Positions 1,847-27,645 of a stretch of 37,206 bases of DNA are shown piece after piece. Below the pieces are notes generated by a model that did no database searches, had not been told where the DNA came from, and saw only the letters and a list, made by a program, of their open reading frames with translations. The position numbers and the translations under genes were made by a program. Source of the DNA: Syntrophomonadaceae bacterium (GTDB taxonomy: Bacteria > Bacillota > Syntrophomonadia > Syntrophomonadales > Syntrophothermaceae); the NCBI GenBank assembly GCA_012719535.1, contig JAAYAC010000121.1, positions 1 to 37,206 of the forward strand, written 5' to 3'. How positions within the stretch are numbered: position 1 is the first letter of the stretch; every line of letters starts with the position of its first letter.

Positions 1847-2197
1847 ATAACCCCTTATCCGTTCCCTTACAGCATTCTATTTCGCTCGTCCACACTTTAT
1901 TACTGCAGGGAGTAAGGCTGGCTGTTTCAGCTATACTTGTCGGGGTGGAGATGAAGGCTTAAGCAAAGGGGAAACAGAAAGGTCTCAAGGAAGAAAAAGA
2001 AGCAGGAAAATGTCCCAGATAGAGTCGTTGCTTGAAAACAACGTCACGCTCGATGTCGGCTCAGGTCTTCTTCACCTTTCTTTTACCTGGCCACAGCGCG
2101 GGCAATGGCTGCCCGCGCCCTTCTCAAGTTTTCCAGAGCTCCCTCGTGTAACATGAGCCCCGGTAGGGGCGTTCCAAGTTCATCGCGTCATAGGCAT
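1847..2197. other. Intergenic region between hemerythrin and spoIIM
   Basis: This 351-base stretch holds no gene that can be defended. It contains a perfect 9-bp inverted repeat (2096-2118) and a purine-rich run on the plus strand (about 1966-2010, pyrimidine-rich on the transcribed strand). Very short open frames exist on both strands, for example 48 codons on plus from 2010 and 23 codons on minus from 2154, but they have weak ribosome binding sites and no recognisable product. The spoIIM promoter should lie here. Confidence 0.5.
2096..2118 (-). repeat. Perfect 9-bp inverted repeat, possible transcript end after hemerythrin
   Basis: Arms GCGCGGGCA and TGCCCGCGC enclose a five-base loop, about 80 bases after the hemerythrin stop codon. 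The stem is strong, but neither strand has a proper T-run after it: the minus strand continues TGTGGCC. A factor-dependent or processing end is possible; a canonical intrinsic terminator is not shown. Confidence 0.4.
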
Positions 2198-2599
2198 CTA
2201 CTGGCTTACCCGAGAGACAATCTTTTTATCCGTATTGAGAATATGGTTGCTGATCCAGTCAACAATGAAGTCCAGGGTCCTCATGAGAAACTCTTCCTGG
2301 CGATCGTCTGCGGAATCCAGGTCAACACCGTCTATCCAAGAGATAAAATCATCGTGCTCGGTCTTGTGAGACAGGAACCTTCCGTATCCTGTTTCCCTCA
2401 TGTACCCCTCCTCCGTGGCAAAGTGGTATTTGGTGTACTCTTTCAGTTCCTCCACTATGGCGACTATATCATCGTACTTGTCCACTCTTAATTGATTGCG
2501 CAACAACTCGTAGGCTCGGTTGGCAATTTCGAATAGGCGACGGTGCTGCTCGTCGATAACAGTTACGCCCAACTCGTATGCACTCTCCCACTTCAACAT
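2198..2599 (-). CDS. Bacteriohemerythrin
   Basis: Small cytoplasmic diiron oxygen-binding protein of 133 residues. All seven iron ligands of the hemerythrin family are present: H19 (DEQH), H59 and E63 (HFATE), H78 and H82 (HKTEH), H119 and D124 (HILNTD). Such proteins store, deliver or sense O2 and are common in anaerobes facing oxygen. The start is taken as ATG 2599. The upstream GTG 2617 lies inside GTGGAGG, which is itself the ribosome binding site for 2599. The gene overlaps the 3' end of the HD-GYP gene by seven bases, indicating translational coupling and a shared function. Confidence 0.93.
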   Translation of the reverse strand: MLKWESAYELGVTVIDEQHRRLFEIANRAYELLRNQLRVDKYDDIVAIVEELKEYTKYHFATEEGYMRETGYGRFLSHKTEHDDFISWIDGVDLDSADDRQEEFLMRTLDFIVDWISNHILNTDKKIVSRVSQ

Positions 2600-3933
2600 G
2601 ATGATACATCCCTCCACGAATTTACTGTTTTGTAAAAATAAAATGGAAACAAATTTTCCTTTACATTAGCCATGTCATGCAGAGCCCAATTCTTTGCCGT
2701 CCCTAAGATCTTAACTCCTGCTCTTGCGATGACCGGGTCGAAATGAGTACCAGCACGACGTTCCAGGTACCATAGAGCCTCGTCGATGGAAAGTGAGGGT
2801 CGGTAGGGGCGGTCAGAAGTGAGGGCGTCAAACACATCAGCTACGGAAATGATCCTGCTCAAATAAGGAATATCCTCGTCTTTAAGTCCCCGGCAATAAC
2901 CACTGCCATCGTACCGTTCATGATGGGCACTCGCGGTTCCAGCCAATCTGGCCATGAACTGCGAGTTCATCAAAATCCTCTCAGTCATAACCACATGCTT
3001 CTTCATTGTTTCCCATTCTATTGGAGTGAGCGGTCCGTTTTTAACCAGTATGCGGCCGGGCGTTCCTACTTTGCCCGCGTCGTGCAGAAAAGCGGACTTC
3101 ACCAAATCGGAAAGCAAACGTTCATCAGTTATGCTTAATTGAGCCGCAATAGCCAGTGAATATAGCGCCACCCGCCGGGAGTGACCGAATGTGTATCTGT
3201 CTTTGGTATCTATTATAAGAGCTGCGGCCTCATACGCCTTGTATAGGAGTTCTTCCTCAGTGTACACACGTTCCTGTTCAAAGCCAAGGCTACTCGGTAT
3301 ACGTTTGTTTTCAACGTTCAACTCCTCTTCATCAACTAAGATATGAAAACGCTCCTTATTCAACACTTCGTCGAAAAGCACATCGCTTATCAGCGAAGAA
3401 TACTCTTGTTCCTTTCTTTCTCGCATGGATTTGCGCAGATAGTCCATAGATATGGACTTCGTGGCTATCCCTCTCCTGAGCAACACGTCCAGTGAATCGG
3501 CAGCCCTGATAATCTGAGCCTCCAAAGGTATATCGTACCCCTTCAGCCCCAGCGGATAACCCTGCCCATCATACCGTTCATGATGGTAAAGAATCCAGGC
3601 GGCTGCATCCTCCAGAAAAGGGATGTTGGTTATTAACCTGCTTCCTATGGACGCATGCGCTTCTATCTTCTTGCGCAAATGCTCCGGTGGGTTAACTGCA
3701 TAATGGGAAATGTGTTCGGGTAACCCTACAGCTCCCACGTCGTGCAAAAGCCCCGCGTAATAAACGAGTCGCGGCTGAGGGCATTGCAAAGCTTGGGCTA
3801 TCCACCCGCAAACGACCCCCACCCGGATCCCGTGCAGAAGCTTCACCTCTTCCTCTATATCAAGAATAGTCGACAGCATTTGGACTGCATCGGTTAAAGC
3901 GTCCGTTTCCCCAATACACTTACCCCGCTCCAT
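2593..3933 (-). CDS. Tandem HD-GYP domain protein, probable c-di-GMP phosphodiesterase
   Basis: The product carries two complete HD-GYP-type metal phosphohydrolase domains in one chain of 446 residues. Domain 1 has H64-D65 (GLLHDVG), HHERYDGQGYP ending at P127 and a downstream AAD. Domain 2 has H250, H284-D285 (FLHDAGKVG) and HHERYDGSGYC, so its GYP triplet reads GYC (345-347). HD-GYP enzymes hydrolyse c-di-GMP or related dinucleotides. No signal peptide or membrane helix is evident, so the protein should be cytosolic. The start is ATG 3933, eight bases after GGGAG; the earlier ATG at 3951 has no ribosome binding site. The overlapping downstream hemerythrin suggests oxygen-linked control of signalling, which is inference. 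Confidence 0.9.
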   Translation of the reverse strand: MERGKCIGETDALTDAVQMLSTILDIEEEVKLLHGIRVGVVCGWIAQALQCPQPRLVYYAGLLHDVGAVGLPEHISHYAVNPPEHLRKKIEAHASIGSRLITNIPFLEDAAAWILYHHERYDGQGYPLGLKGYDIPLEAQIIRAADSLDVLLRRGIATKSISMDYLRKSMRERKEQEYSSLISDVLFDEVLNKERFHILVDEEELNVENKRIPSSLGFEQERVYTEEELLYKAYEAAALIIDTKDRYTFGHSRRVALYSLAIAAQLSITDERLLSDLVKSAFLHDAGKVGTPGRILVKNGPLTPIEWETMKKHVVMTERILMNSQFMARLAGTASAHHERYDGSGYCRGLKDEDIPYLSRIISVADVFDALTSDRPYRPSLSIDEALWYLERRAGTHFDPVIARAGVKILGTAKNWALHDMANVKENLFPFYFYKTVNSWRDVSSC

Positions 3934-3951
3934 TGGCACTACTCCCATCAT

Positions 3952-4178
3952 TTCGCATTTGAGACAACACTCGCAATTTTAATGTTACGGGGCGTATTTA
4001 GCCCCAACCTCACATTGGCCATAGAATTTGGGCGATGGCCGAGCAGCCAATACAATAACCGGGATTCACTTCTCAGAGTAACGTATGCTCCCGCCGAAGC
4101 CCACCAGGCCGGGCAGACGTAGCACATGGCAGCAAGCTGCCACATCGCTCCCTGTTGGCTAGCCGCAGTCAAAAAAAT
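3952..4178. other. Intergenic region upstream of the HD-GYP gene
   Basis: This 227-base gap separates the EndoQ-type operon from the HD-GYP gene. On the transcribed strand it holds a T-run directly after the upstream stop codon (4170-4176), a short stem with a CTTG loop (TGGCAG/CTGCCA, about 4126-4141), and a GGGGC/GCCCC hairpin with a seven-base loop (3989-4005). A promoter for the HD-GYP/hemerythrin pair is expected here but no clear match was found. No known riboswitch consensus was recognised, including c-di-GMP classes. Confidence 0.4.
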
Positions 4179-4853
4179 CTACGGCTGTATATCAGGCAGC
4201 TCGCCCACCAGCAAGGAAGCGATGAATTGTGCTGCCAGGATGTCTTCCTGGGAGTTGCGGCTGGCTGCGACCACCGCAATCCCTTCCTTGTCGCCCACCA
4301 GTTCCCTGGCACGGCGAACCGCGGTCAGGGCGGGCTGAAGCCCTTTTTGCGCCAGGGTGCGAGCCACCGTCCCGGTGATCACGTCCCGCTGCTCCTGAAA
4401 AGCGGCATCAAAGGCCACCCCTCCGGTATCAGTAACGGCCACAACTACCCGGTCTCTCATCTCGGCAAGCCTGGGGGTCTCGGCTCCCAAATTGGGTACC
4501 ACTGCTTCGATACAGCCTTTTTCTATTTCTATCCCCCGCACCAGCCCCCGGCAACGGTCCAGTCGTTCCTCATCGGAGCCTACTCTGGGTTCGGAAACAA
4601 TCACGATACCAGTCCCCGCCTCCCTCGCCAGGCGTGCGGCCTCACGACCGATGAACTCGGGGTACACCCTGACCGGGGCACGGGTAAAGTCGGGGCTAGC
4701 CCCCAGCACCCGGTAGGCTCCCACATCCAGAGCGCTCTCCAGGGTGGTGGACATGTCAATAACGTCGACCACCATCACCAGCAAACCTTCCCGGGCAGCA
4801 TGCCAGGCTCCACTGGCGTCGGTAGTCATACTAATTCTTTTTGATCTTACCAT
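4179..4853 (-). CDS. Uncharacterised protein with ComB-like N-terminal motif
   Basis: The 224-residue product is not firmly recognised. Residues about 25-50 (VMVVDVIDMSTTLESALDVG) resemble the AVVIDVLRATTT...ALxxGA segment of 2-phosphosulfolactate phosphatase (ComB) proteins, and a later V(A)VTDTGGVAFDAAF stretch fits an alpha/beta enzyme. The similarity is by eye and does not establish activity. No membrane segment is seen. Start ATG 4853 has GGGGGAGG eight bases upstream; the later ATG 4829 has no such site. The gene overlaps the EndoQ-like gene by 23 bases, so the two are translationally coupled. The closing codons run directly into a T7 stretch. Confidence 0.6.
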   Translation of the reverse strand: MVRSKRISMTTDASGAWHAAREGLLVMVVDVIDMSTTLESALDVGAYRVLGASPDFTRAPVRVYPEFIGREAARLAREAGTGIVIVSEPRVGSDEERLDRCRGLVRGIEIEKGCIEAVVPNLGAETPRLAEMRDRVVVAVTDTGGVAFDAAFQEQRDVITGTVARTLAQKGLQPALTAVRRARELVGDKEGIAVVAASRNSQEDILAAQFIASLLVGELPDIQP

Positions 4854-22801: not shown

Positions 22802-23023
22802 CTAGTCTTCCAGGAGGCTGAGTTCCCAACCCGAGTTCAGGTTCCTGGTAAGCTTCAACACCCGTCCCTCGGCTTCTTTTAACTGGCTTTCGCAACTACG
22901 GAAAAGATGGATACCTTCTTCAAACATCTGCAGAGTCTCCTCCAGGTCCAGGTTGCCTTCCTCGAGCCGGGATACGATCTCCTCCAATCTGGCCATGGCC
23001 TTCTCAAAACTCATACTTTCCAT
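22802..23023 (-). CDS. xseB: Exodeoxyribonuclease VII small subunit
   Basis: Small helical subunit of exonuclease VII, 73 residues. It contains the family core SFEKAMARLEEIVSRLEEG and LDLEETLQMFEEGI. It partners XseA for degradation of single-stranded DNA. Its start overlaps the xseA 3' end by 13 bases, indicating coupled translation of the two subunits. Confidence 0.96.
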   Translation of the reverse strand: MESMSFEKAMARLEEIVSRLEEGNLDLEETLQMFEEGIHLFRSCESQLKEAEGRVLKLTRNLNSGWELSLLED

Positions 23024-24246
23024 TCTTCACCAGGCTCCTTTTCCTCAACTGTCACTCGCATCAGCCCCTGGCCGAGTATTACCTCCAGCGTCTCCCCGAT
23101 GTAAACCTCTTCTACATTTTTTACAATTTTTCCTGCCTCTAGCTTGCGCACCAGGGCGTAACCCCGCCGCAAGACCTTGACAGGCCCCAGGGCATCCAGT
23201 TGCCGGGCGGCGCTCCCCAACCGGTAGGCTTTCGCGGTCAACACCGCGGTACAGGCCCTTACAAACCTGCCCCTGAGATCTGCCAGATGCCTTTGCCTGT
23301 CCAGAATAACACTCCCGGGGTCTGACCATATTCTTTTTCCTTTCAGATAGTCCAGTTCCTGCCACTTGCGGGTTATGTACCTCTCCAGCGCCTTCTGCAG
23401 CCGCTCTTTCACAACCTGTAGATCGCGGTACAGAATGTTCATGTCTGGAACTGCGAGCTGTGCGGCCTGGGTGGGGGTAGCCGCCCGCACATCAGCCGCC
23501 ATGTCGCACAGACAGTAATCAACTTCATGGCCTACTGCAGATATTACCGGAATCTTGGAGTTGTAAACGGCTCGTACTACTTCTTCCGTGTTAAAAGCCC
23601 ACAGGTCCTCGAAAGAGCCACCGCCGCGACCTACGATGATGACATCAACGTCAGTATATTCATTCAGGGCCTTAATCGCCCCGGCAACTTCCGCTGGGGC
23701 CGTCTCTCCCTGTACCGCACTGTGAGCGATGACGACCTCCGTTCCCGGGCGCCGCTGCCTGATTATCCTCAAGATGTCGCGGAAAGCCGCCCCGTCCTGG
23801 GAGGTAACAAGTCCCACCTTCCGAACGAAGGAGGGCAGGGGCCTCTTCCTGTCCGCGGCAAAAAGCCCTTCGCGCTCGAGCCTGTCGCGCAGCTGGCACA
23901 ACTGCAGGAACAACGCCCCCAGACCATCAGGTTCCAATTCTTCAACATACAGCTGGTAACGACCACTTTTCTCAAAAACAGAAATGTACCCGCGCGCCAG
24001 TACCTTCATTCCGTTCTCCGGGGCAAACCTGAGTTCCCGGGCCCGGCTGCGAAACATGACACAACCGATGACCGCCCCCCCTTCCTTCAGGCTGAAATAG
24101 AGGTGGCCGGATTTCTGGTAATGCTTGAAATCCGATATCTCGCCTTTTACCCAGACTCCGGCCAGTAACCGATCCCTCTCCAGAATCCCCCGAATATGGG
24201 CGGTCAACTCACTGACCGAGAGTATCTTGCCCCTATCCATACCCAA
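23011..24246 (-). CDS. xseA: Exodeoxyribonuclease VII large subunit
   Basis: Catalytic subunit of exonuclease VII, 411 residues. The N-terminal OB-fold (about 8-105) begins SVSELTAHIRGILE and includes VWVKGEISDFKHYQKSGHLYFSLK. The nuclease domain has PTVVxSxxxA-type elements VGLVTSQDGAAFRDILRI, RGGGSFEDLWAFN, and ISAVGHEVDYCLCDMAADVRAATPT. A coiled-coil C-terminus follows. Length is slightly short but normal for clostridia. It starts three bases after the folD-like gene. Confidence 0.97.
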   Translation of the reverse strand: MGMDRGKILSVSELTAHIRGILERDRLLAGVWVKGEISDFKHYQKSGHLYFSLKEGGAVIGCVMFRSRARELRFAPENGMKVLARGYISVFEKSGRYQLYVEELEPDGLGALFLQLCQLRDRLEREGLFAADRKRPLPSFVRKVGLVTSQDGAAFRDILRIIRQRRPGTEVVIAHSAVQGETAPAEVAGAIKALNEYTDVDVIIVGRGGGSFEDLWAFNTEEVVRAVYNSKIPVISAVGHEVDYCLCDMAADVRAATPTQAAQLAVPDMNILYRDLQVVKERLQKALERYITRKWQELDYLKGKRIWSDPGSVILDRQRHLADLRGRFVRACTAVLTAKAYRLGSAARQLDALGPVKVLRRGYALVRKLEAGKIVKNVEEVYIGETLEVILGQGLMRVTVEEKEPGEEWKV

Positions 24247-24249
24247 ACC

Positions 24250-25134
24250 TCACCCCTGGCGCGGCGCCCCCGGCGCAGGGCCATAAGGGGCTACGGTCTG
24301 TTCGGAGCTTTTCGCTGCTTGAACCAGGTTTTCCAGGAGCTTGGCAATGAGGATAGGACCCATCCCCCCCGGAACCGGGGCCAGCCACCCCGCATGCCCG
24401 GTCACGGAAGCTTTATCCACATTTCCACACACCTTACCCGACTCCCAATGAAAGCCGGCGTCGATGACAAATGAGCCCGGTTTAATCACATCACCGGTTA
24501 CCATTCGCGGTTCGCCTTTTTCTACGACCAGGATGTCGCCACGGCGGGCCGCCTCCTGCCACTCTACAGGAGAAGGAATAATTTCCACCTGGCAGCCCCG
24601 GGCCAGTAATAACAATCCCAGCGGTTGAATTAGGTCGAATGAATCACCAATAAGTACCGCATGCTTACCATCAACCCGGATGTGCCTGTCCAGCATCTCC
24701 AGGGTAGCCAACGCCGCGCAGCTTATGAACTGTGCCTGTGAAACCAGCAGCTGTCCCCGGTTGAAGGGGTGAAAACCGTCCACATCCTTGCCGGGGGCAA
24801 GGGCAGCAAGTACCGTTTCCTGTTCATGAACAAGTTGGTCGGGGAGAGGCAGCTGTACCAGTATGCCGTGTGTCCTCACATCCCGGTTTAACACCGCCAC
24901 TTTTGCGCAGAGGTCGGCAACACCTATAGCCGCCGCAACCCGGAGTACTTCACATTCACCTCCGATAGCGGCCACCGCCTTTTGTTTCATACCCACATAG
25001 TGCAGGCTTTCCTCATTGTCACCCACCAGGATAACAGCCAGCCGGGGTGGGAACCCAAGGGCTTCCACCTCCCTGCCCAGCCGGGCCTTGATCTCGCTGG
25101 CTATCTCGGAGCCGTTTATCAACCGGGTATCCAT
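24250..25134 (-). CDS. FolD paralog A: folate-site residues kept, NADP-motif lost
   Basis: FolD enzymes convert methylene-THF to methenyl- and formyl-THF with NADP. This 294-residue copy keeps the folate/catalytic set: Y46 and K50 in YVGMKQK, Q94 in VQLPLP, and GKDVDGFHPFN (115-125), plus PVPGGMGP. It has lost the dinucleotide motif: where GRSxxVGxP is expected, it has GDSFDLIQPLG (163-173). The PCTP segment is also gone (SCAALATLEML). ATG 25134 follows the paralog-B stop codon with no gap. It may be a cyclohydrolase-only form, a non-NADP enzyme or a subunit; this is inference. Its position before xseA equals the folD position in Bacillus. Confidence 0.85.
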   Translation of the reverse strand: MDTRLINGSEIASEIKARLGREVEALGFPPRLAVILVGDNEESLHYVGMKQKAVAAIGGECEVLRVAAAIGVADLCAKVAVLNRDVRTHGILVQLPLPDQLVHEQETVLAALAPGKDVDGFHPFNRGQLLVSQAQFISCAALATLEMLDRHIRVDGKHAVLIGDSFDLIQPLGLLLLARGCQVEIIPSPVEWQEAARRGDILVVEKGEPRMVTGDVIKPGSFVIDAGFHWESGKVCGNVDKASVTGHAGWLAPVPGGMGPILIAKLLENLVQAAKSSEQTVAPYGPAPGAPRQG

Positions 25135-26022
25135 CTACATCACCTGCTCCAGACCACTCGCCCGCTTGGCTAACTGCCATTTAGTCGCCTTGACCAGGTT
25201 CTGCAAGAGGAAAGCAACGGTCACCGCTCCTGCACCCCCGGGAACCGGGCTTATGAAGGCCGCCCGCTTGCAGGCCTCCTCGAACTCCACGTCACCAACG
25301 ATCTTGTCGCCCACCGCGTTTATACCTACATCGATGACAATGGCACCTTCCTTAATCCACTCTCCCCTGATAGTATTGGGCCGGCCTATCGCCACTACCA
25401 GGATCTCGGCCCGGCGCACATGCTCTTCCAGGTATCCGCGCTCGTAAGTGCCTATGTGGCAGACGGTAACGGTAGCGTTTTCTTTCAGCAACATGATGGC
25501 ACACGGTTTGCCGACAATATCACTGCTCCCGATAATGGTAACTTCCTTTCCGGCCAGGTTTACTCCAGTCGACTTGATGAGCTCTACTGCCGCCAGCGCC
25601 GTACAAGGTGCCAGCAGGGGTGCGCCCAGGAACAACCTGCCCAGGTTGTAAGGGGTTACTCCTTCAATATCCTTTTCGTGCGATATTCGCCACTGTGCAG
25701 CTCTGGCTTCAAGGGCGGAGGGAAGGGGCATGTGCAGTATGATTCCGTTGATTGCCGGGTCTTCATTAATATTGTCCAGGGTCCGCATAAGCCTGGCCTG
25801 TGTAGTGAAGGCCGACAGCTGCAGCAACTCGCAATTGATGCCCACCGTTTCGGCCTGGCGCTGTTGCGAATTAAGATAAACCCTCGACGCAGCATCCTCT
25901 CCTACTTGAACCGTCATCAAGCAAGGGTTAACCCCCTTTCCCTTGAGCTCCTTTACCTCCTTCCTTACCCCGCTCAAAATCTTTTCCGCCAGGTTCTTAC
26001 CATAGAGTATTTTTGTTTCCAT
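25135..26022 (-). CDS. FolD paralog B: NADP-motif kept, catalytic Lys and Gln lost
   Basis: Second FolD-family gene, 295 residues. The dinucleotide motif is largely intact (IIGSSDIVGKP, 163-173), with APCT at 138-141 and SPVPGGAGAVT near the end. The catalytic motif YVxxK reads YLNSQ, so the essential Lys is Q53, and the VQLPLP glutamine is H97 (LHMPLP). KDVDG reads KDIEG. With these losses normal dehydrogenase/cyclohydrolase catalysis is unlikely for B alone. It is four bases downstream of the TsaD-like gene and abuts paralog A stop-to-start, so equal amounts of both proteins are expected. See the finding on complementary losses. Confidence 0.86.
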   Translation of the reverse strand: METKILYGKNLAEKILSGVRKEVKELKGKGVNPCLMTVQVGEDAASRVYLNSQQRQAETVGINCELLQLSAFTTQARLMRTLDNINEDPAINGIILHMPLPSALEARAAQWRISHEKDIEGVTPYNLGRLFLGAPLLAPCTALAAVELIKSTGVNLAGKEVTIIGSSDIVGKPCAIMLLKENATVTVCHIGTYERGYLEEHVRRAEILVVAIGRPNTIRGEWIKEGAIVIDVGINAVGDKIVGDVEFEEACKRAAFISPVPGGAGAVTVAFLLQNLVKATKWQLAKRASGLEQVM

Positions 26023-26025
26023 TAC

Positions 26026-27015
26026 CTACACCTCTTCCAGTTGCATGTTGGTCAGCCATTTTTCCCGCCCCATAAGGGCTATTCCCACAGCATTGTCAGT
26101 GCTGAGACGAGGCAGCGCAAAGTGCAATCTGAGCCCCACCGCCGGGTGCTCCAGCCTCTCTCGTAACCGTTGTTTAATCAACCCGTTGGCCATAACCCCG
26201 CCTACCAGGACCACATCCCGGACCGCCTGCAGCCCGGCCTGGTCCCTTACCACTTTTTCGAGGGTATTGGCAATACAGCGCAAGAGCGCAAACGCCACTT
26301 CTTCGCGTGGTACTCCCTGCCTCAGGTAGCGAGTGGCCAGGGTCTCGGCCCCAGAAAAAGAAAACCGCCTTCCCCTTACGGCGGCTGGAATCGCAACCAC
26401 CGGCTTCTGTTCCTTGCCCATCGCCAGGGCGAGTTCCTCCAGGTACTTACCCGCTGGAAAAGGCAGTCCCATGCTTACCCCGACCCGATCCACCAGTTGT
26501 CCGGCATGCAGATCGGTGGTGGCGGCCAGAACCGCGATATCGTAATAGTGAACAGTACCGGGTTGTACCAGTAGCACCTCCGACGTACCGCCGGAAAAAT
26601 GAACCGCCAGGTAGCGTTCTGGTAAAGTACTATCGTTTCCGTACTGTCCAGCCATGATATGACCTTCCTGGTGACTGAAGGTGTAAAGCGGCACCCCCAC
26701 CACGCTACTCAGGGAGCGACCCATGCTTTCGCCCGCCAGAAACACCGGCATGTAACTGCCGGTTACGTTCCTGGGACACGTACTGACGGCTACCGCCCCC
26801 ACGGTATACTTAGAGAAGTATTTCTCAAGCTCGGCAAATAAAAAAGGAAGGTTTCGCACATGGGAAAATAGCGCCTCCGACTGTCGCAACCCCCTTTTTC
26901 CCTCTTCGACCTTCAGTACCTTGCGCAGGTCAGCTACGAGTTCTCCCTTCTCATCCACCATGGCCAGGGAAGTGGTATAAGCGCTGGTATCAATCCCGAG
27001 CACCGATTTCATCAT
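26026..27015 (-). CDS. TsaD/Kae1-like paralog
   Basis: ASKHA-fold protein of about 329 residues, related to TsaD (Kae1/Gcp), the tRNA t6A threonylcarbamoyl transferase. Metal ligands are retained: H115 and H119 in FSHQEGH and D307 in STDNAV. SGG (141-143), D176 and GGVMANGL (N277) also fit. Several signature stretches differ from TsaD: HFSGGTSEV instead of SGGHTxL, DRVG instead of DAxGEAFD. It is therefore more likely a paralog than the essential tsaD. ATG 27015/27012 follow GGGAG; the in-frame opening to 27126 overlaps nusB deeply. Located between nusB and folD, where Bacillus has no such gene. Confidence 0.85.
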   Translation of the reverse strand: MMKSVLGIDTSAYTTSLAMVDEKGELVADLRKVLKVEEGKRGLRQSEALFSHVRNLPFLFAELEKYFSKYTVGAVAVSTCPRNVTGSYMPVFLAGESMGRSLSSVVGVPLYTFSHQEGHIMAGQYGNDSTLPERYLAVHFSGGTSEVLLVQPGTVHYYDIAVLAATTDLHAGQLVDRVGVSMGLPFPAGKYLEELALAMGKEQKPVVAIPAAVRGRRFSFSGAETLATRYLRQGVPREEVAFALLRCIANTLEKVVRDQAGLQAVRDVVLVGGVMANGLIKQRLRERLEHPAVGLRLHFALPRLSTDNAVGIALMGREKWLTNMQLEEV

Positions 27016-27409
27016 CTTTCTCTCCCGAAATCCTGTCCAGTATGGCATTAATGAAGCCCTTGGAGTTTTCGTCGCCATATGTCTTCGCCAGTTCCACCGC
27101 TTCATCGATGGCGATAGCCGGGTCAATATCGGTGTACAGTATCTCGTAAACTGCCAGGCGCATGAGGTTTCGGTCTACGGTGGGCATCCGCTCAATGTTC
27201 CATTCGGGCGAGTATTTGCTGATACGCCTGTCAATGGCACCCAGCTCGGCCAGCGTACCATGGACTAGTTCCCGAGCAAAGCTACAATACTTCTCCTGGA
27301 GGGGCATCTCTTCCAAGAGGTACCCCAGTGATGATTCCGGTCGGGCTCCGGCCAGGTCAACCTGAAACAGAACCTTAAAAGCTATTTCCCTAGCTAACCG
27401 CCTGCTCAA
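26990..27409 (-). CDS. nusB: Transcription antitermination factor NusB
   Basis: Binds boxA RNA with NusE (S10) for antitermination of rRNA operons. The product starts SRRLAREIAFKVLFQVDL, the family signature, and ends with AIDEAVELAKTYGDENSKGFINAILDRI. TTG 27409, seven bases after AAGGGG, gives 139 residues; the longer opening to 27466 would overlap the DUF2273 gene by 40 bases. The 3' end overlaps the TsaD-like gene by 26 bases. First gene of the long housekeeping operon running to argR. Confidence 0.94.
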   Translation of the reverse strand: MSRRLAREIAFKVLFQVDLAGARPESSLGYLLEEMPLQEKYCSFARELVHGTLAELGAIDRRISKYSPEWNIERMPTVDRNLMRLAVYEILYTDIDPAIAIDEAVELAKTYGDENSKGFINAILDRISGEKDDEIGARD

Positions 27410-27426
27410 CAACAGTCCCCTTTCCG

Positions 27427-27645
27427 CTACCTGTTCTTGAAAACCCGCTGAACCCAGTCGTCCCAATCAGTACGTTCATCGATGTTCTTACCCACCAGGT
27501 ACCCCAGCGCTATACATATAATAATAAACAGGGCTTTCCAGAATCCATAGGAGACAACCAGGATGCCAGCTATCAACCCCAGGCCAATCCCGAGCAACTT
27601 GCCCCGGTGGTGTTCCAGGATATGCAATAAGAATTTTTCCCACAT
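27427..27645 (-). CDS. DUF2273 small membrane protein
   Basis: Protein of 72 residues with two hydrophobic stretches (about 15-32 and 36-52) and a charged tail containing DERTDWDDWV. DUF2273 proteins are regularly found beside amaP and asp23. Probably part of the membrane module that anchors Asp23. It begins 12 bases after the amaP stop. Confidence 0.88.
   Translation of the reverse strand: MWEKFLLHILEHHRGKLLGIGLGLIAGILVVSYGFWKALFIIICIALGYLVGKNIDERTDWDDWVQRVFKNR

Follow-up and report, generated by a model that had tools for sequence, protein, structure and literature searches.

Two adjacent FolD paralogs in the 37,206-nucleotide stretch of DNA analyzed here (the window) most probably take the place of one bifunctional FolD, with copy A serving as a FolD-derived methenyl-THF cyclohydrolase and copy B as a FolD-derived methylene-THF dehydrogenase. 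FolD is a textbook bifunctional enzyme in which both reactions use one active site. Two separated partial activities were among the outcomes raised by the original prediction for this locus, and conserved residues, published mutants, and gene complementation patterns all lend them good support.

Genes on the minus strand of the window follow the order nusB (the frame at 26990-27466, named by its resemblance to genes in related loci), a TsaD-like gene, B, A, and xseA (Table 1). Both FolD frames lie as first described, with the TAG stop codon of B directly abutting the ATG start codon of A. The typical bacterial folD position has a folD-xseA-xseB order, and B-A-xseA-xseB or A-xseA-xseB is found at the same place in several genomes, which indicates that the pair sits at the usual folD position. 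The same comparison suggests loss or relocation of B in some lineages and loss of A in genome G011, in which no remnant of a decayed A was found beside B. The TsaD/Kae1-like gene scores below the TsaD equivalog cut-offs and likely starts within its listed reading frame, at MMKSVLGIDTS; a similar gene also precedes A in G005 and other genomes.

Table 1. Positions of the FolD paralogs, their diagnostic residues, and neighboring genes in the window (conservation is counted over aligned sequences of each type)
Feature	Coordinates	Strand	Support or conservation
Copy B: FolD paralog, 295 aa, putative methylene-THF dehydrogenase only	25135..26022	-	PF00763 + PF02882; residues; AF2
Copy A: FolD paralog, 294 aa, putative methenyl-THF cyclohydrolase only	24250..25134	-	PF00763 + PF02882; residues; AF2
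TsaD-like gene, directly upstream of B; recurrent neighbor at the locus	26026..27126	-	
xseA (exonuclease VII large subunit), downstream of A; marker of the folD-xseA-xseB locus	23011..24246	-	
A: YVGMK, catalytic Tyr and Lys kept (Y46, K50)	24985..24999	-	48/48 A sequences
A: Gln94 kept	24853..24855	-	49/49 A sequences
A: KDVDG kept (residues 116-120)	24775..24789	-	Asp125 (human) in 49/49 A sequences
A: GDSFDLIQPLG (163-173), remodelled former nucleotide loop in place of GRSxxVGxP	24616..24648	-	
A: Glu205 at the human Ala215 position, former nucleotide site	24520..24522	-	49/49 A sequences
A: Leu262, human Thr279 to Leu	24349..24351	-	48/48 A sequences
B: YLNSQ (Y49, Q53), Gln in place of catalytic Lys	25864..25878	-	Gln in 25/25 B sequences
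B: His97 replacing catalytic Gln	25732..25734	-	His 14, Asn 9, Gln 2 among 25 B sequences
B: KDIEG, human Asp125 (pterin-binding Asp) to Glu	25660..25674	-	Glu in 25/25
B: GSSDIVGKP dinucleotide loop (165-173)	25504..25530	-	

Copy A matches PF00763 with 97 bits and PF02882 with 122 bits, and copy B with 110 and 203 bits, respectively, all above the cut-offs and over full length. Neither protein reaches the NCBIfam models of bifunctional FolD, the best scores being 226 bits against a cut-off of 421 for A and 294 bits against 355 for B. AF2 models based on family alignments had a mean pLDDT of 93.5 for A and 92.4 for B, and the best PDB matches of both were all FolD/MTHFD structures, at a TM-score of 0.75-0.91. 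It had been cautioned that a third, complete FolD elsewhere in the genome would weaken the reading of an essential function; a search of the 98.4%-complete assembly found none, with one extra 41-residue match below the cut-off. Likewise, no FchA (PF04961) was found in this genome, and A itself has no PF04961 domain. Fhs is present.

The two copies were compared at 7 catalytic and 13 NADP-site residues of human MTHFD1 (PMC3368264), and human numbering is used below unless stated otherwise. Window copy A has all 7 catalytic residues and is identical at 4 of the 13 NADP-site residues. The original prediction held that A keeps Tyr46, Lys50, Gln94, and KDVDG and lacks GRSxxVGxP, all of which is borne out; the loss extends far past that loop, to the equivalents of Thr148, His196, Ala215, and Thr279, and the nucleotide-site changes comprise T148A, R173D, I176D, G178I, H196P, A215E, and T279L. 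Among 49 aligned A-type sequences, the catalytic residues are intact wherever covered (Tyr52 and Lys56 in 48/48, Gln100 and Asp125 in 49/49), in relatives that share 40-64% identity with the window copy. At the nucleotide site, R173D is found in 44 of the 49, and all 49 have I176D and Ile, Val, or Cys for G178. On average, A-type proteins keep 7.0 of 7 catalytic residues and approximately 4 of 13 nucleotide-site residues of the canonical kind.

Copy B keeps the nucleotide half and has lost the catalytic set. The GSSDIVGKP loop, Gln53, and His97 reported earlier agree with the sequence, and the same pattern is found order-wide; to these can be added KDIEG for KDVDG, in which the pterin-binding Asp is replaced by Glu. 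The changes in window B are thus K56Q, Q100H, L101M, and D125E (K54Q/Q98H/D121E in E. coli numbering). K56Q and D125E occur in all 25 B-type sequences, Q100 is replaced in 23 of them, and T148, G172, S174, G178, and T279 are kept; window B also keeps P180. The B-type averages are 3.4 of 7 catalytic residues and 10.5 of 13 nucleotide-site residues of the canonical kind. The dN/dS ratio was 0.06-0.18 for A and 0.06-0.12 for B, values taken from the closer pairs in which dS is measurable, comparisons with the window copies being near or past saturation. A pseudogene reading was rejected, as these ratios show purifying selection. The recurrence of the same substitutions in 49 A-type and 25 B-type sequences, together with low dN/dS, indicates that the losses in the two copies did not arise by chance.

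Published mutants indicate what these residues imply. In E. coli FolD, K54N leaves cyclohydrolase activity undetectable and dehydrogenase activity at approximately 19%, and Q98H leaves approximately 1% and 8%, respectively (PMC5688156). Window B is altered at both of these positions and at a third. A conflicting result comes from silkworm MTHFD, whose K53A mutant reportedly retained cyclohydrolase activity (PMC6443876). No report bearing on K56Q or Q100K was found in the literature searched.

The cofactor of B may differ from that of canonical NADP-dependent enzymes. In window B, the two positions that bind the NADP 2'-phosphate are both substituted (R173S, S197I), a point beyond the original prediction, and window B thus probably uses NAD+ rather than NADP+. 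Both Arg173 and Ser197 are kept in ten B-type sequences and the others vary, so NAD preference may be variable across the B type. In a relative, Thermacetogenium phaeum, methylene-THF dehydrogenase activity of cell fractions was reported to be approximately 10,000-fold higher with NAD+ than with NADP+ (PMC6895022).

The distribution of A across genomes resembles that of a cyclohydrolase. Within Syntrophomonadales, A was found in 50 of 63 genomes, most of them drafts, and FchA in 14 of 63. Restricting the count to genomes at least 90% complete leaves 28 with A alone, 7 with FchA alone, 3 with both, and 2 with neither (Fisher p = 2e-4 for exclusion; p = 0.005 at the genus level); within the order, A largely substitutes for FchA. 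Both occur together in four genomes of genus g13 and in G015. Neither was found in G011 (99% complete), which has B without A, or in G012, in which no FolD of any type was detected.

A dehydrogenase-type FolD accompanies A in 48 of the 50 genomes with A, as type B or as a further type, C, and 26 of them have C without B. The two genomes with A and no called B or C are G061 (67% complete) and G028, where there is a contig-edge fragment. Type C occurs in 41 of the 63 genomes; Lys56 is replaced by Ile, Leu, Ala, Val, or Met, Asp125 is replaced by Glu in all sequences except one, and the nucleotide site is kept. By the same residue reasoning as for B, C would be another dehydrogenase-type FolD. 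Given its co-occurrence with either type, A would behave as the cyclohydrolase partner of any such FolD. Type C proteins carry the motifs YVNGI, KDVEG, and AVPGGVG (e.g., L081 1510-2358 and L107 1540-2358, among loci L068-L128) and, in the two loci inspected, lie at a different place from A, near yraN-like genes. A further FolD type, with YENSI, was seen in L077 (G023:C50) at 1507-2385, adjoining a second formyl-THF synthetase gene (G023:C50:15008-16666).

A comparison across the phylum covered 57 genomes outside the order with classified FolDs. FchA is present in 21/21 genomes that have no FolD with intact Tyr/Lys/Gln/Asp versus 11/36 of those that have one (p = 1e-7, the counts being genomes and not independent events), and it lies within approximately 0.5 kb of folD in 13 of the 21. 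This pattern supports the reading of the catalytic residues taken from the E. coli mutants. Nine phylum genomes carry a FolD variant with the catalytic Gln changed to Glu and YxxxK kept, often with a GRGETVGK loop and usually beside FchA (loci L214, L215, L216, L217, L221, L222, L227, L228, and L229). In L212 (G116) and L213 (G070), FolD matches lie in overlong frames of 569 and 425 aa, respectively, which may represent an extension or fusion.

On this evidence, B would bind a dinucleotide, probably NAD+, together with methylene-THF and catalyze hydride transfer alone to give methenyl-THF, being limited to the dehydrogenase step because the Lys/Gln/Asp set for hydrolysis is gone. A, with the catalytic set kept and its nucleotide pocket rebuilt with acidic and bulky residues, would bind methenyl-THF and hydrolyze it to 10-formyl-THF. 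The two would act one after the other as distinct enzymes, each most likely a homodimer; each activity, the NAD+ preference, and the oligomeric state we infer.

Several other explanations were weighed. First, there is a small chance that, in lineages with the tandem, this one included, a mixed dimer of A and B passes methenyl-THF directly from the dehydrogenase site of B to the cyclohydrolase site of A, or that the rebuilt pocket of A, with its invariant Asp and Glu, binds another ligand that regulates flux to formyl-THF. Second, an obligate A-B heterodimer, in which folate chemistry and cofactor binding are split between subunits, is unlikely. FolD is a dimer (PMC5688156), the genes are stop-to-start here and adjacent in other tandem lineages, and the T. 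phaeum products are named "two subunits" in a report that gives no evidence for the term at that point (PMC6895022). However, the coexistence of A with C as well as with B argues against such a complex, and the original prediction of an obligate A+B form does not hold as a general rule, given the 26 genomes with A and C, the latter at another locus, and no B, and the B without A in G011. Furthermore, neither polypeptide depends on the other for the residues of its half-reaction, which makes pairing of A with B unnecessary.

Third, A could be a dead or regulatory FolD homolog comparable to the D/C domain of MTHFD1L, with B sufficing and methenyl-THF hydrolyzed spontaneously. The lost nucleotide site of A would fit, as would the survival of E. 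coli without cyclohydrolase, which was ascribed to spontaneous hydrolysis, but very slow growth was reported for E. coli K54N (PMC5688156). A dead A is rendered very unlikely by the invariance of its catalytic Tyr, Lys, Gln, and Asp while the rest of the protein diverges, by purifying selection, and by its substitution for FchA in the order. Finally, it is hardly credible that B retains both functions with K56Q and that A is a redundant duplicate heading for loss: silkworm MTHFD K53A reportedly retained cyclohydrolase activity (PMC6443876), contrary to E. coli K54N (PMC5688156), but Lys, Gln, and Asp are all changed together in window B, FchA is kept in all 21 of the compared phylum genomes without an intact-set FolD, and A is order-wide and under purifying selection.

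Relatives of the pair bear on its history. In a quick tree with a midpoint root, A with A', B with B', and C each formed one clade (SH-aLRT 99, 99, and 100, respectively). An A'-B' tandem is found throughout family f30, including T. phaeum (G130). The loop of A' is partly kept (GWSIEIGKP, GHSIEVGKP), and Arg173 and the CHS motif are gone; A' may mark a halfway point toward A or a separate, parallel course. A strong FchA accompanies A' in many f30 genomes, so the exchange of FchA for A does not extend to A' in this family, which weakens the exchange argument. The f30 genomes also contain divergent FTCD_C-like proteins (approximately 50-65 bits) distinct from FchA (e.g., G130:C1:588329-588841). 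In G119 (L146), two NfnA/NfnB-transhydrogenase-like genes (2181-4402; DHODB Fe-S plus NAD-binding, and Fer4_20 plus Pyr_redox_2) lie between B' and A', a hint of a possible redox link of the dehydrogenase.

Compared to known systems, the proposed division of labor has several distinct features. First, A and B share fold, length, domain order, and the folD-xseA-xseB position with bifunctional FolD and the D/C domain of MTHFD1; however, bifunctional FolD has both half-sites in one protein, whereas A has the catalytic half and B the nucleotide half, with no intact FolD in the genome. Second, FchA combined with a dehydrogenase-type FolD lacking the catalytic set is the arrangement of many acetogens. 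There, too, two proteins divide the two reactions, but that cyclohydrolase is unrelated to FolD, whereas A is a FolD paralog, even though A and FchA largely interchange in the order. Third, monofunctional methylene-THF dehydrogenases are known from yeast (MTD1) and Peptostreptococcus productus; like these, B would be a FolD-family dehydrogenase without cyclohydrolase activity, but with a putative FolD-derived cyclohydrolase next door. Fourth, the D/C domain of human MTHFD1L resembles A as a FolD-homologous region with lost activity, but it has lost both dehydrogenase and cyclohydrolase, whereas A retains the cyclohydrolase residues. We know of no FolD-derived cyclohydrolase, although dehydrogenase-only relatives are known, and none was found in the largely open-access literature searched.

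The closest parallel is the B'-A' tandem Tph_c16310/Tph_c16320 of T. phaeum, where the dehydrogenase is reported to be mainly NAD+-dependent (PMC6895022) and both proteins were detected in proteomes (PMC12674515). Its A' keeps the GKP loop end (GWSIEIGKP), unlike A. Its annotation treats the pair as duplicate copies, or as subunits, of one bifunctional enzyme, and the passages on it in the two reports propose no division of labor (PMC6895022, PMC12674515).

In an order with many syntrophs, organisms that subsist close to the thermodynamic limit, the FolD reactions thus appear to be divided between paralogs at the folD locus. Together with the less altered A', which belongs to a related family whose members include a cultured species, A and B constitute a natural experiment on the roles of individual residues, and they bear on the reason for uncoupling both steps, such as an NAD-linked redox step. 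The split reading would also correct the annotation of such copies as bifunctional FolD, with which metabolic models of these organisms would miscount activities.
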